Shown: positions 19,680 through 22,718 of the stretch, one piece after another
Layout: every line of letters begins with the position of its first letter
Position numbering within the stretch: position 1 is the first letter of the stretch
NCBI RefSeq assembly: GCF_014202315.1
Contig: NZ_JACHGN010000006.1
Span: forward strand, 248,001-312,000
Reading direction: 5' to 3'
Length of the DNA stretch: 64,000 nucleotides
From: Thermocatellispora tengchongensis
Lineage (GTDB): Bacteria; Actinomycetota; Actinomycetes; Streptosporangiales; Streptosporangiaceae
Program-made: the position numbers and the translations under genes
Notes under the pieces: model-generated
Databases searched by the model: none
Seen by the model: the letters and a program-made list of their open reading frames with translations, nothing else
Told to the model about the DNA's origin: nothing

Positions 19680-20702
19680 TCAGTCGCCGATGGGCTCGTT
19701 CGCCGATTCGGGGACGGCCTCCTGGCGGCGGTTGGCGTACAGGCTGGTCATGGTGACCGTGACGAGCACCGTGACGATGACGCCGAGCGACATCAGGGTG
19801 GGGATCTCCGGCACCCAGGACCAGATGCCGTGGGCCCAGTGCAGGATGAGTTTGACCCCGATGAAGCCCAGGATGACGCTGAGCCCGTGGTTGAGGTGGC
19901 GCAGTTTGCTCAGGGCCCCCTGGAGCACGAAGTACAGCGCGCGCAGGCCGAGCAGGGCGAAGGCGTTGGTGGCGAAGACCAGGAAGGGGTCCTCGGTCAC
20001 GCCGTAGACCGCCGGCACCGAGTCCACGGCGAAGACGATGTCGGTGGCGAAGACGGCCACGGCGGCCAGCGCCAGCGGGGTGAGCGCCAGGCGGCCCTTC
20101 TCCCGCACGATCAGCCGCGAGCCCCGGTAGTCGCCGGTGACGGGCACGAAGCGGCGCAGCAGCCGGACGCTGCGCATGGAGGAGACGTCCACCTCCTGCT
20201 CGCGCCCGGTCAGCACGTCGCGCAGCAGCTTGCCGGCCGTGACGATCAGGATGGCGCCGAACAGCACGAACGCCCACGTGCCGCTCTGCAGCGCGGCGGC
20301 GCCCAGCGCGATGAAGATCGCACGCAGGATCAGCGCCCCGACGATGCCGTACAACAGGACCTGCCGCGCGAGCGCCGAGGGGACCGCGAAGGCCGACAGC
20401 AGCAGCATGAACACGAACAGGTTGTCCACCGACAGCGACTTCTCCACGATGAAGCCGGTGTAGAACTCCACCGCCGGGGTGGTGCCGTACGCCCACCACA
20501 GGTACGCGCCGAACGCGACGGGCAGCGCCAGGTAGAAGACCGACCAGAGCACCGCCTCGCGCATCCGTACGTCGTGCGGGCGCCGGGTCAGCGCCAGATC
20601 CAGGGCCAGCAGCACCACCAGTCCGGCGACGCTGATCGCCCAGAGACTCGGCGAGCCGACGCTGTCGATCGTCAGGGCATGCAGATGTGTTCCCGCGGGC
20701 AT
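19680..20702 (-). CDS. TerC-family integral membrane protein, probable manganese exporter (Alx/MeeF-like)
   Basis: 340 aa from the ATG at 20702, with GGAGG ideally placed. About nine hydrophobic segments are visible, and the family signatures are intact: FIVEKSLSVDNLFVF near 83-97 and VFATDIVFAVDSVPAVYG near 215-232, whose acidic residues form the metal path. TerC proteins such as Alx and B. subtilis MeeF/MeeY are linked to Mn2+ efflux or metal loading of exported enzymes; older names refer to tellurium resistance. The leader contains a yybP-ykoY-type element, which supports Mn2+ as the ligand and substrate. Confidence 0.93.
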   Translation of the reverse strand: MPAGTHLHALTIDSVGSPSLWAISVAGLVVLLALDLALTRRPHDVRMREAVLWSVFYLALPVAFGAYLWWAYGTTPAVEFYTGFIVEKSLSVDNLFVFMLLLSAFAVPSALARQVLLYGIVGALILRAIFIALGAAALQSGTWAFVLFGAILIVTAGKLLRDVLTGREQEVDVSSMRSVRLLRRFVPVTGDYRGSRLIVREKGRLALTPLALAAVAVFATDIVFAVDSVPAVYGVTEDPFLVFATNAFALLGLRALYFVLQGALSKLRHLNHGLSVILGFIGVKLILHWAHGIWSWVPEIPTLMSLGVIVTVLVTVTMTSLYANRRQEAVPESANEPIGD

Positions 20703-20830
20703 GGAACCTCCTCGAACGCGACCGGGCCGTTCGAGGTCTCCTTCACCCGCGCCGACGCGGGCGGCCGCCCGGGGACGCGCGGGACGTCCGTACTGACCGG
20801 GCCGGCTCTTGGGAAGTACTCCCCTCGCCA
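20703..20830 (-). promoter_or_regulatory. yybP-ykoY (Mn2+) riboswitch with RBS-sequestering platform, for TerC
   Basis: Reading the minus strand: CGAGG-GGAGTAC at about 20827-20816, and GAAGGAGA-CCTCG closing the element at about 20745-20732. CGAGG and CCTCG pair to form P1, and the GGGGAGUA and GRAGACC boxes are the diagnostic conserved sequences of this class. The same CCTCGAAC (20736-20729) is fully complementary to GTTCGAGG (20717-20710), which contains the start of the GAGGAGG ribosome-binding sequence. Ligand-stabilised P1 and the RBS hairpin are therefore mutually exclusive, predicting translation ON with Mn2+. Inner helices were not modelled. Confidence 0.78.
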
Positions 20831-20886
20831 CGCCCAGGGTAGGCCACATGGGCGATCCGCTCCAGTCCGTTCGCCTCCACAGGGCG

Positions 20887-20915
20887 TTGACCGGGGGTGC
20901 CGCGCGGCGGATAGT
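20887..20915 (+). promoter_or_regulatory. Sigma-70-like promoter of the small membrane protein gene
   Basis: TTGACC (20887-20892), a 17-bp spacer and GATAGT (20910-20915). Predicted transcription start near 20922, directly at the 5' edge of the riboswitch. Confidence 0.6.
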
Positions 20916-20923
20916 GGAGGAAG

Positions 20924-21072
20924 CGGCAAAGGGGAGTACCCGCGCCATGACACCCTGTCGTCATCACGGCCCGCTCGCACAGAGGCCCGGCAGGGTGGCC
21001 CTCCCGGCGGGAGGGTGCGGGAAGACCTTCACCTCGTGGCAGTGCGGCCACGCCAGGCAAAGGAGGCTTCCC
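20924..21072 (+). promoter_or_regulatory. Second yybP-ykoY-like (Mn2+) riboswitch with RBS-sequestering platform
   Basis: AAAGG-GGAGTA (20928-20938) and GGGAAGA-CCTT (21019-21029) match the two conserved boxes of the class and close a short AAGG/CCTT P1. Internal helices include CACCCTG with CAGGGTG. The 3' box can instead pair downstream: GGGAAG (21019-21024) with CTTCCC (21067-21072), and CCTT with AAGG (21060-21063), which is part of the AGGAGG ribosome-binding site. A CGTGGC/GCCACG hairpin caps that alternative fold. As for TerC, ligand binding should free the RBS. The P1 stem is weaker than in the TerC copy. Confidence 0.72.
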
Positions 21073-21291
21073 ATGCCGTTGATCACGGCACTGCTCGAAC
21101 TCCTCTTCTCCGTCCTGCTGATCCTCTCCATGATCATCACCATGGCCGTGCTGTGGACCGGCCCCCGCCCCCGTGGCACCGGCCGCCGCGGCCCCTTCAC
21201 CTCCGAGCCCTCGCTGAACGGCCGGCGGGCCCGCGACCACGGCGACGGAGACGAGACCCGGATCTTATGGCTGGAGCGGCCGGCGCACTGA
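21073..21291 (+). CDS. 72-aa single-pass membrane protein under a Mn-type riboswitch; undescribed
   Basis: ATG at 21073, six nt after AGGAGG. Residues about 4-28 (ITALLELLFSVLLILSMIIT and on to W28) form one transmembrane helix; the remaining 44 residues are polar and Arg/Gly/Pro-rich, ending LERPAH. Third-position GC is high as in real genes here, but codon 65 is a TTA leucine codon, which in many actinomycetes makes translation depend on the bldA tRNA. It is divergent from TerC, and both have the same riboswitch class, so a role in Mn2+ export, as a TerC partner or as a small regulator like MntS, is the leading inference. No homologue recognised. Confidence 0.68.
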   Translation: MPLITALLELLFSVLLILSMIITMAVLWTGPRPRGTGRRGPFTSEPSLNGRRARDHGDGDETRILWLERPAH

Positions 21292-21306: not shown

Positions 21307-21338
21307 TTGGACTCTCCCCCTGTGGGAGGGCCCATGCT
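21307..21338 (+). promoter_or_regulatory. MerR-type promoter with long spacer and dyad; probably leaderless
   Basis: TTGGAC (21307-21312), a 20-bp spacer containing CTCCC-N5-GGGAG (21314-21328), and CATGCT (21333-21338). An overlong spacer with a central dyad is the hallmark of MerR-activated promoters. The predicted transcription start falls at the GTG at 21346. Confidence 0.65.
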
Positions 21339-21345
21339 GGGGTGC

Positions 21346-22176
21346 GTGGACGGAGATCTGCTGCCGATCGGGCAGTTCGCCCGGCTGACCCGGCTGAGCG
21401 TCAAGCAGTTGCGGCACTACGACGAGCTCGGGCTGCTGGTGCCGGCGTACGTGGACGCCGGTTCCGGTTACCGCTACTACCGGCGCGCGCAGGCCGGGCG
21501 GGCGCTGTCGATCGGGCTGCTGCGCTCGCTGGACGTGCCGCTGCCGGTCATCGCCGAGGTGCTGTCGGGTACGACGGGCGCCCTGGACGGGGTGCGCGAC
21601 GCGCTGGAGGCGGAGCTGGCGCGGCGGCGGCGGACGCTGGCGACGCTGGAGCGCGTGATGACCGAGGGGCTGCCGGCCACGCCCGTACGGGTGGTCACCG
21701 AGCCGGCCAGGCAGGTGGCGGTGGTCCGCGAAAGCGCGGCCGGGCCCGCCGACGTGGCACGCGCCACCTCGGCGGCCGTCGCCCGCCTGCTGGGCGCCGT
21801 GCCCCTCACCGGCGCGCCGGAGCTGATCGGGCTGTTCCCGGTCGAGCTGGACGACGCCTTCGAGGTGCGCGTCGCGCTCGTCGTCGATCCCGTCGATCCC
21901 GTCGATCCCGGCGGCCCTGGCGGCCCCGGCGGCGCGGCCCGGCCGCCTGAGCGGGCGGGTCTCGGCACGGAGGTGCTGCCCGGCGGGGCGTTCGCCTGCG
22001 CCACGCACGTCGGTCCGTACGACCAGATCTCTCTCACCGCGCACGCCGTGCTGGCCTGGTGCGCCGAGCGGGGACACCCGCTGCGCGGGCCGATCCGCGA
22101 GGTGTACGTCTCCGACCCGGCCACCACCGACCCCGCCCGGCTCGTCACCCACCTGATGATCCCCCTGGAGGACTGA
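21346..22176 (+). CDS. MerR-family regulator with GyrI-like effector domain (BmrR-like)
   Basis: 276 aa from the GTG at 21346. That start gives the standard MerR N terminus DGDLLPIGQFARLTRLSVKQ and agrees with a leaderless transcript; an ATG at 21334 is possible. MerR HTH at about 6-75 with RHYDELGLL, a coiled dimerisation helix at about 80-115, then a GyrI-like ligand domain at about 125-275. The effector domain carries a repetitive Asp-Pro-Val and Gly-Gly-Pro insertion at about 180-200. It probably activates its own promoter and the overlapping downstream unit, which starts 2 bp after its stop. Ligand likely a bulky hydrophobic or cationic compound. Confidence 0.88.
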   Translation: MDGDLLPIGQFARLTRLSVKQLRHYDELGLLVPAYVDAGSGYRYYRRAQAGRALSIGLLRSLDVPLPVIAEVLSGTTGALDGVRDALEAELARRRRTLATLERVMTEGLPATPVRVVTEPARQVAVVRESAAGPADVARATSAAVARLLGAVPLTGAPELIGLFPVELDDAFEVRVALVVDPVDPVDPGGPGGPGGAARPPERAGLGTEVLPGGAFACATHVGPYDQISLTAHAVLAWCAERGHPLRGPIREVYVSDPATTDPARLVTHLMIPLED

Positions 22177-22178
22177 GC

Positions 22179-22718
22179 ATGACCCCGGCGATGACCCCGG
22201 CGACGACCCCGACGATCGTCACCCGCGGCCCCGTCACCTGCCTGAGCGTGACCGGCATGGGCGAACCCGACGGCGGCGAGCACAGCGCCGCCGTCCGGGC
22301 CCTGTACACCGTGGCCGCCGCCCTGGGCGCCGGCGCCGGCCCGCTGGAGGGCCAGTGGTGGGCGGAGGACGACCGGCCGGCGCTGCAGGTCCCGCGCGAG
22401 CAGTGGCGCTGGCACATGCTGCTGCCGCTGCCGGACGCCCCGCGGCAGGAGGGCGCGCTGGAGCGGGCGCGCGAGCAGAGCCGCCCCTCGGGCGCGGCCG
22501 TCGACCGGGTGCGTCTGACCGTCGTGACCGAGGGGCAGTGCGTGGAGCTGCTGCACGAGGGCCCGTTCAGCGAGGAGCACCTGTCGCTGAAGATCATGGA
22601 GGAGTTCATGGCCGAGCGCGGGCTGACCGTCAACGGCCCGCACCACGAGATCTACCTGACCGCCCTGGACGACCCGGCCCCGCGCACGCTGCTGCGCCAG
22701 CCCGTACGCCCCGCCTGA
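22179..22718 (+). CDS. Stand-alone GyrI-like small-molecule-binding protein
   Basis: 179 aa from the ATG at 22179, 2 bp after the MerR stop. After a short MTPAMTPAT repeat-like N terminus there is a GyrI-like/SOUL-type half barrel with GPVTCLSVTGMG, QWWAED, WRWHMLLPLPD and a final VELLHEGPFSEEHLSLKIMEEF plus HHEIYLT segment. No DNA-binding domain is present. Such proteins bind or hydrolyse small hydrophobic compounds; pairing with a BmrR-like regulator suggests the two share a ligand. Confidence 0.8.
   Translation: MTPAMTPATTPTIVTRGPVTCLSVTGMGEPDGGEHSAAVRALYTVAAALGAGAGPLEGQWWAEDDRPALQVPREQWRWHMLLPLPDAPRQEGALERAREQSRPSGAAVDRVRLTVVTEGQCVELLHEGPFSEEHLSLKIMEEFMAERGLTVNGPHHEIYLTALDDPAPRTLLRQPVRPA

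Follow-up and report, generated by a model that had tools for sequence, protein, structure and literature searches.

The window analysed here, a stretch of 64,000 nucleotides of Thermocatellispora tengchongensis DNA, holds two genes that diverge from a common intergenic region, each of them preceded by its own structured RNA leader (Table 1). The minus-strand gene encodes a TerC protein of the Alx type, a member of the TIGR03718 family with nothing unusual in the protein itself; what distinguishes it within that family is its small divergent neighbour, an ORF for a single-pass membrane protein. The two GGGGAGTA boxes of the divergent leaders are about 106 nt apart. The existence of a divergent pair of manganese-class leaders at this place, originally proposed in a sequence-only reading of the same DNA, is upheld by the boxes found on both strands, by the matches of two covariance models (R1 and R2, see below) and by covariation in both leader types. 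By eye, a TTGACC / AATAGTG element similar to the promoter-like element of the window also precedes two leaderless copies of the small ORF (L041 and L049).

Table 1. Features of the divergent TerC and small-ORF locus, with positions counted along the window
Feature	Position	Strand	Basis
TerC, Alx type, 340 aa	19680..20702	minus	TIGR03718 R_switched_Alx, 355.6 bits (NCBIfam cut-off 246.4); PF03741, 147.2 bits
TerC leader, manganese-class aptamer	20703..20838	minus	R1 match 20689-20838; R2 match 20733-20826; covariation over 51 leaders
Boxes of the minus leader	GGGGAGTA 20824-20817; GGAGACC 20741-20735	minus	read from sequence
Hairpin CCUCGAAC/GUUCGAGG	20710..20736	minus	closing strand of P1 as 5' arm; 3' arm enters the GGAGG ribosome-binding site of TerC
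Promoter-like TTGACC-17-GATAGT, ahead of the plus leader	20887..20915	plus	sequence
Small-ORF leader, manganese-class aptamer	20917..21072	plus	RF00080 match below cut-off; R2 match (training row); covariation over 33 leaders
Boxes of the plus leader	GGGGAGTA 20931-20938; GAAGACC 21021-21027	plus	read from sequence
Hairpin between CCUU (closing strand of P1) and AAGG (in the ribosome-binding site)	21026..21063	plus	predicted fold (weak); family-wide shuffle test
Ribosome-binding site AAAGGAGG	21059..21066	plus	sequence
Small single-pass membrane protein, ATG, 72 aa + stop	21073..21291	plus	45-place family; TerC adjacency; constraint; predicted helix
Conserved core of the small protein (about residues 1-35; helix 3-28)	within 21073..21291	plus	family alignment; AlphaFold

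Directly behind the small ORF, a MerR-type regulator with a GyrI-like domain is followed by a second GyrI-like protein (21334-22718). The MerR gene was considered as the true target of the plus-strand switch and discarded, given that it is absent from the other 53 loci, for most of which the flank covered no more than 1.5 kb. Inspection of 15 relatives revealed no neighbour common to them behind the small ORF; in nine of the 15 the first predicted ORF is on the opposite strand.

Assignment of the leaders to the yybP-ykoY class was initially addressed with the Rfam model RF00080. The plus leader is matched at 20911-21016 with 30.9 bits (E 7.4e-6), short of the gathering score of 45, and the genome contains no second RF00080 match at E up to 1. 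A scan of 161 nt covering the minus leader gave no match at E up to 10, the same model reported none in 20 relative loci or in L088 and L139, and no Rfam family reached its gathering level anywhere in the window. The sequence-only reading had proposed an RF00080 search of both strands and had named the lack of an above-threshold hit in the plus leader as a refuting outcome. Formally this outcome occurs, as the hit found there lies below the threshold, and the minus leader has none. This cut-off proved too strict as a test for refutation, because the E. coli K-12 mntP leader (L196) also falls below it with 41.6 bits and the alx leader of the same strain (L197) is not reported by RF00080. The Rfam model under-detects GC-rich manganese switches.

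Two covariance models were therefore compared, R1 being built from 51 TerC leaders and R2 from 33 plus-type leaders only. Each of them scores the leader of the window that served as one of its training rows highly (139.3 bits for R1 on the minus leader, 116.6 bits for R2 on the plus leader). In the crosswise comparison, where the target was no training row, R2 recovered the minus leader of the window with 24.5 bits (E 5.6e-4) and R1 the plus leader with only 14.0 bits (E 0.027), and TerC leaders of the same family, none of them a training row, reached about 20-37 bits with R2. The top match of R2 is the E. coli alx leader (27.6 bits, E 2.9e-6; the next match has 9.4 bits). R1 also ranks it first, though with a low score (12.7 bits, E 0.0029). 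R2 did not find the mntP leader of E. coli and gives 1.7 bits at that place. At the level of the class, R2 has matches at E up to 0.1 in 37 of 148 genomes. Of the 20 R2 loci fetched from class genomes, three are leaders of small ORFs; among the 17 others, 16 have a TerC homologue immediately downstream. R2 finds TerC leaders in other actinomycete families, and R1 recognises the leader of each of the 19 TerC orthologs from other families on which it was run. On the strength of these cross-matches, of the top rank of alx and of the TerC-linked R2 matches, the two leader types of the window are, as judged from sequence models, akin to one another as well as to the manganese class. With yybP-ykoY RNAs such as the leaders of alx and mntP in E. 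coli they have in common the two boxes and the P1 architecture, and the minus leader also the TerC/Alx gene that follows; the alx leader is the top match of R2. They differ from these RNAs in being GC-rich RNAs that RF00080 scores below cut-off or misses, and in that the second switch here precedes a gene for a small protein.

Mn2+ would accordingly be expected as the ligand in both leaders. The alternative that these RNAs, while homologous to manganese riboswitches, sense another ion or have lost ligand control is improbable: it could appeal to the RF00080 results, which lie below the cut-off for both leaders and are blank for the 20 relative loci and L088, but alx is not reported by RF00080 either, both R2 and R1 (the latter with only 12.7 bits) rank the E. 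coli alx leader first, and the targets of the leaders are TerC genes.

A closer view of the leaders indicates how they may work. In both of them the boxes GGGGAGUA and GRAGACC are joined by helix P1, as the sequence-only reading had described, and this is borne out by sequence and by covariation. Pairing and covariation were scored on a structure named by the authors and compared with shuffles. Among the 51 TerC leaders, 97.4% of the cells are paired and two-sided changes number 39 versus 6.5 in shuffles; for the 33 plus-type leaders the corresponding values are 93.2% and 39 versus 16.9, and the number of pairs showing a two-sided change (8 versus 5.8) is not striking, being reached by 41 of 500 shuffles.

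The closing strand of P1 has a second potential partner in the ribosome-binding region. In predicted folds its pairing partner lies within the 20 nt that precede the start codon in 30 of 35 plus-type leaders (shuffled mean 7.9, maximum 13) and in 49 of 49 TerC leaders (shuffled mean 17.0, maximum 25), as measured against 100 composition shuffles and after two of the 51 TerC leaders, whose start was not found by pattern, had been dropped. The cells of this helix are paired in 80.9% of cases for the plus-type leaders and 97.8% for the 51 TerC leaders. Covariation of the ribosome-site hairpin was detected neither in plus-type nor in TerC leaders, which is what would be expected, without constituting proof, if the helix has to keep two partners, and the shuffle test takes the place of covariation as its support. 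For 20 of the 35 plus-type leaders its folding energy has a z below -1; in the plus leader of the window z is only -0.81. The computation supports that closing of P1 and pairing of the ribosome site are mutually exclusive in the predicted folds. Both leaders look like translational ON switches.

The small protein downstream of the plus leader belongs to a conserved family. The 72-aa sequence alone as query returned mostly chance matches in 61 genomes, of which only those beside TerC led on. A profile of 10 sequences was then used to search 341 genomes of the bacterial family (Streptosporangiaceae). The family was found at 45 places in 40 of these genomes, all with E up to 4e-7 and separated by a gap from the chance level, set at 7.9e-5. 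Six loci found by scanning named genomes (two Streptosporangium, two Nonomuraea, Acrocarpospora and Herbidospora) all show both boxes and a divergent TerC; their proteins are identical to places already counted, adding names and no new evidence. For 42 members, neither Pfam nor NCBIfam gave a match above cut-off (best E 0.016 and 0.046, respectively, for one member each), and the PDB gave none at E up to 1; the family has no Pfam or NCBIfam model.

A full riboswitch recognised by R2 precedes 37 of the 45 places, most of which are training rows of that model (L075, L077, L091 and L099 are not), and a partial one precedes another (L111). The remaining seven have no R2 leader (L066, L067, L074, L078, L080, L086 and L112). 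At four of these, all from one genus (L066, L067, L074 and L078), the small ORF and its own ribosome site are kept and the riboswitch between promoter and ORF is missing, apparently through loss within that genus.

The conservation of the protein is restricted to a part of about 35 residues, comprising an invariant acidic residue, one helix, a Leu-Trp and a basic tail. All 42 members carry the acidic residue at the same helix position (39 Glu and 3 Asp), and all 42 carry the Leu-Trp. The basic tail differs between genera, the length of 72 aa is particular to this genome, and in one relative (L064) the whole protein has 34 aa. The small membrane protein put forward by the sequence-only reading is real and conserved in the light of its 45 places and of the constraint on its residues, but the 72 aa are not the conserved unit, since whatever follows the first 35 or so is tail. 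AlphaFold predicts one helix over residues 3-28 and an uncertain tail; a conserved helix face was sought and rejected (permutation p 0.91). Counted over 54 locus entries (the 45 places plus 9 repeat fetches), Arg and Lys occur once in the seven N-terminal residues and 148 times in the twelve residues after Leu-Trp, a concentration that suggests an N-out, C-in topology.

Constraint was evaluated over 35 pairs by placing the same base changes at random. The number of residues changed was 270 against 334 expected (sd 8, minimum 309 of 500), and a hydrophobic or small residue was kept in 93% of the changes against 66% expected (maximum 73%). The simple dN/dS is only 0.57, with shifted-frame controls of 0.73 and 1.73, so that the constraint is seen less in how often residues change than in what they change to. 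These data bear on the reading that the ORF is not a functional partner protein and encodes a membrane peptide that is toxic or serves in signalling, or that its coding sequence is a by-product of some regulatory transcript. Such a peptide would be short and of one helix, as here, and the tail that is not conserved between genera and the modest dN/dS would suit it; the constraint on residues, the retention of ORF and ribosome site where the riboswitch has been lost (L066, L067, L074 and L078) and the fact that no antitoxin-like partner was seen alongside, by eye only, make it very improbable.

The link of the family to TerC, likewise anticipated, is supported by its position. At 41 of the 45 places, a divergent TerC ortholog is found no more than about 550 bases away, an adjacency that partly reflects shared ancestry. 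In a 100-genome sample of the family, the small protein occurs in 11 of the 21 genomes with a TerC ortholog and in none of the 79 without it, a co-occurrence inflated by shared ancestry as well. TerC does not need the small protein everywhere, as 10 of those 21 genomes have the ortholog without it. Both boxes are found upstream of all 21 TerC orthologs fetched first and in none of nine more distant TerC loci. R2-type leaders nevertheless stand on three distant TerC genes (L129, L130 and L132) that come from a single genus of the family, and just upstream of two distant TerC homologues (G003:C33:83390-83534 and G003:C70:8709-8859) in a Nonomuraea genome that also carries the divergent pair, which indicates that the switch is not confined to the TerC ortholog.

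Another arrangement was encountered outside the bacterial family, where two of 19 TerC orthologs (G456 and G555) have a small membrane ORF directly downstream and the other 17 have no such small ORF nearby. Both belong to one other family, in which three of 22 genomes have a TerC ortholog and two of these three the small ORF. With a profile that excluded these sequences, the G456 ORF gave E 6.8e-5, no better than chance matches (7.9e-5), and its weight lies therefore in its position after TerC; the G555 ORF gave E 0.0075 in a small set. The remaining profile matches in other families, with E values of 0.001 or above, were put down to chance. In G456 the ORF (L152 2487-2642) and the stop codon of TerC overlap, and the small protein has at its C-terminus a His-Gly repeat that could bind metal.

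Four places lie away from TerC (L102, L105, L111 and L112). L102, in genome G189, keeps the riboswitch and has its TerC ortholog elsewhere in the genome, and L105, in G243, keeps it in a genome with no TerC ortholog and only a 45% TerC paralog. L111 and L112, poorly conserved and away from the ortholog, are two of three copies in G196; the TerC adjoining the third (L115) contains a stop codon.

It is from these places that the main rival explanation draws, according to which the small protein does answer high Mn2+ and acts elsewhere, for instance by holding back an importer of Mn2+, by aiding a different exporter or within the Sec machinery, its place next to TerC being due to a shared need for the switch. 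L102 and L105 with their leaders retained, the absence of the small protein from about half of the sampled ortholog genomes and, in passages of PMC10550928, the co-purification of B. subtilis TerC proteins with the Sec-associated set SecY, SecDF and YrbF are all in keeping with it. We regard it as rather unlikely in view of the 41 places of 45 beside TerC, the small ORF placed directly after TerC in two genomes of another family, and the lack of the small protein in all 79 sampled genomes without the ortholog.

Altogether, the leaders, their structure and kinship to alx, the exclusive pairings, the conservation of the protein and its linkage to TerC are supported by computation, and for a single helix co-induced and gene-linked with TerC the simplest reading is that of a Mn2+-induced partner or modulator of TerC, which we favour by a modest balance of probability. 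At high cytoplasmic Mn2+, each leader would fold its aptamer and close helix P1, which would take up the strand otherwise paired with the ribosome-binding region; with this region freed, translation would rise, one arm yielding TerC and the other the single-helix membrane protein. The latter would most likely bind or modulate TerC, in the way known from small accessory proteins of other transporters, and we infer a physical partnership between the two. A more specific and clearly more tentative proposal is that this is the first small-protein subunit of TerC, a Mn2+-induced helix with an invariant acidic residue that would assemble with TerC and gate Mn2+ export or pass Mn2+ to exported enzymes, and whose gene would either diverge from that of TerC, with twin riboswitches, or share an operon with it.

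Small one-helix accessory proteins of transporters include KdpF, AcrZ and MgtS. If the partner reading is true, the protein of the window would resemble them in its one helix and in a gene linked to that of a larger membrane protein, and would differ in being linked to TerC, in its manganese-class switch and in fitting no library family. A second comparison is offered by MntS of E. coli, of 42 aa, also a small protein of a manganese regulon; MntS is reported to be induced at low Mn, whereas the protein of the window is predicted to be induced by high Mn2+. The known targets of manganese riboswitches are mostly transporters and metal-handling membrane proteins. PMC10550928 describes meeY of B. 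subtilis as under a Mn-responsive riboswitch and TerC proteins of that bacterium as having Mn efflux activity and a role in metalation of exported enzymes, and PMC13274385 describes terC and mneA of Vibrio as Mn-induced behind such a riboswitch.

The riboswitch class and TerC are already known. The literature searched, with the 2015 surveys of riboswitch-controlled genes outside its scope, contained nothing on the small-protein family, its yybP-ykoY control or its link to TerC, and within these searches and the libraries covered all three are undescribed. Whether TerC serves efflux or the metalation of exported enzymes is, in the passages of PMC10550928 that treat its role, still under study. 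That a conserved small protein encoded next to TerC has a switch to itself suggests that TerC function involves a component missed so far, and its gene, small and deletable in harmless actinomycetes, would provide a handle on that function.
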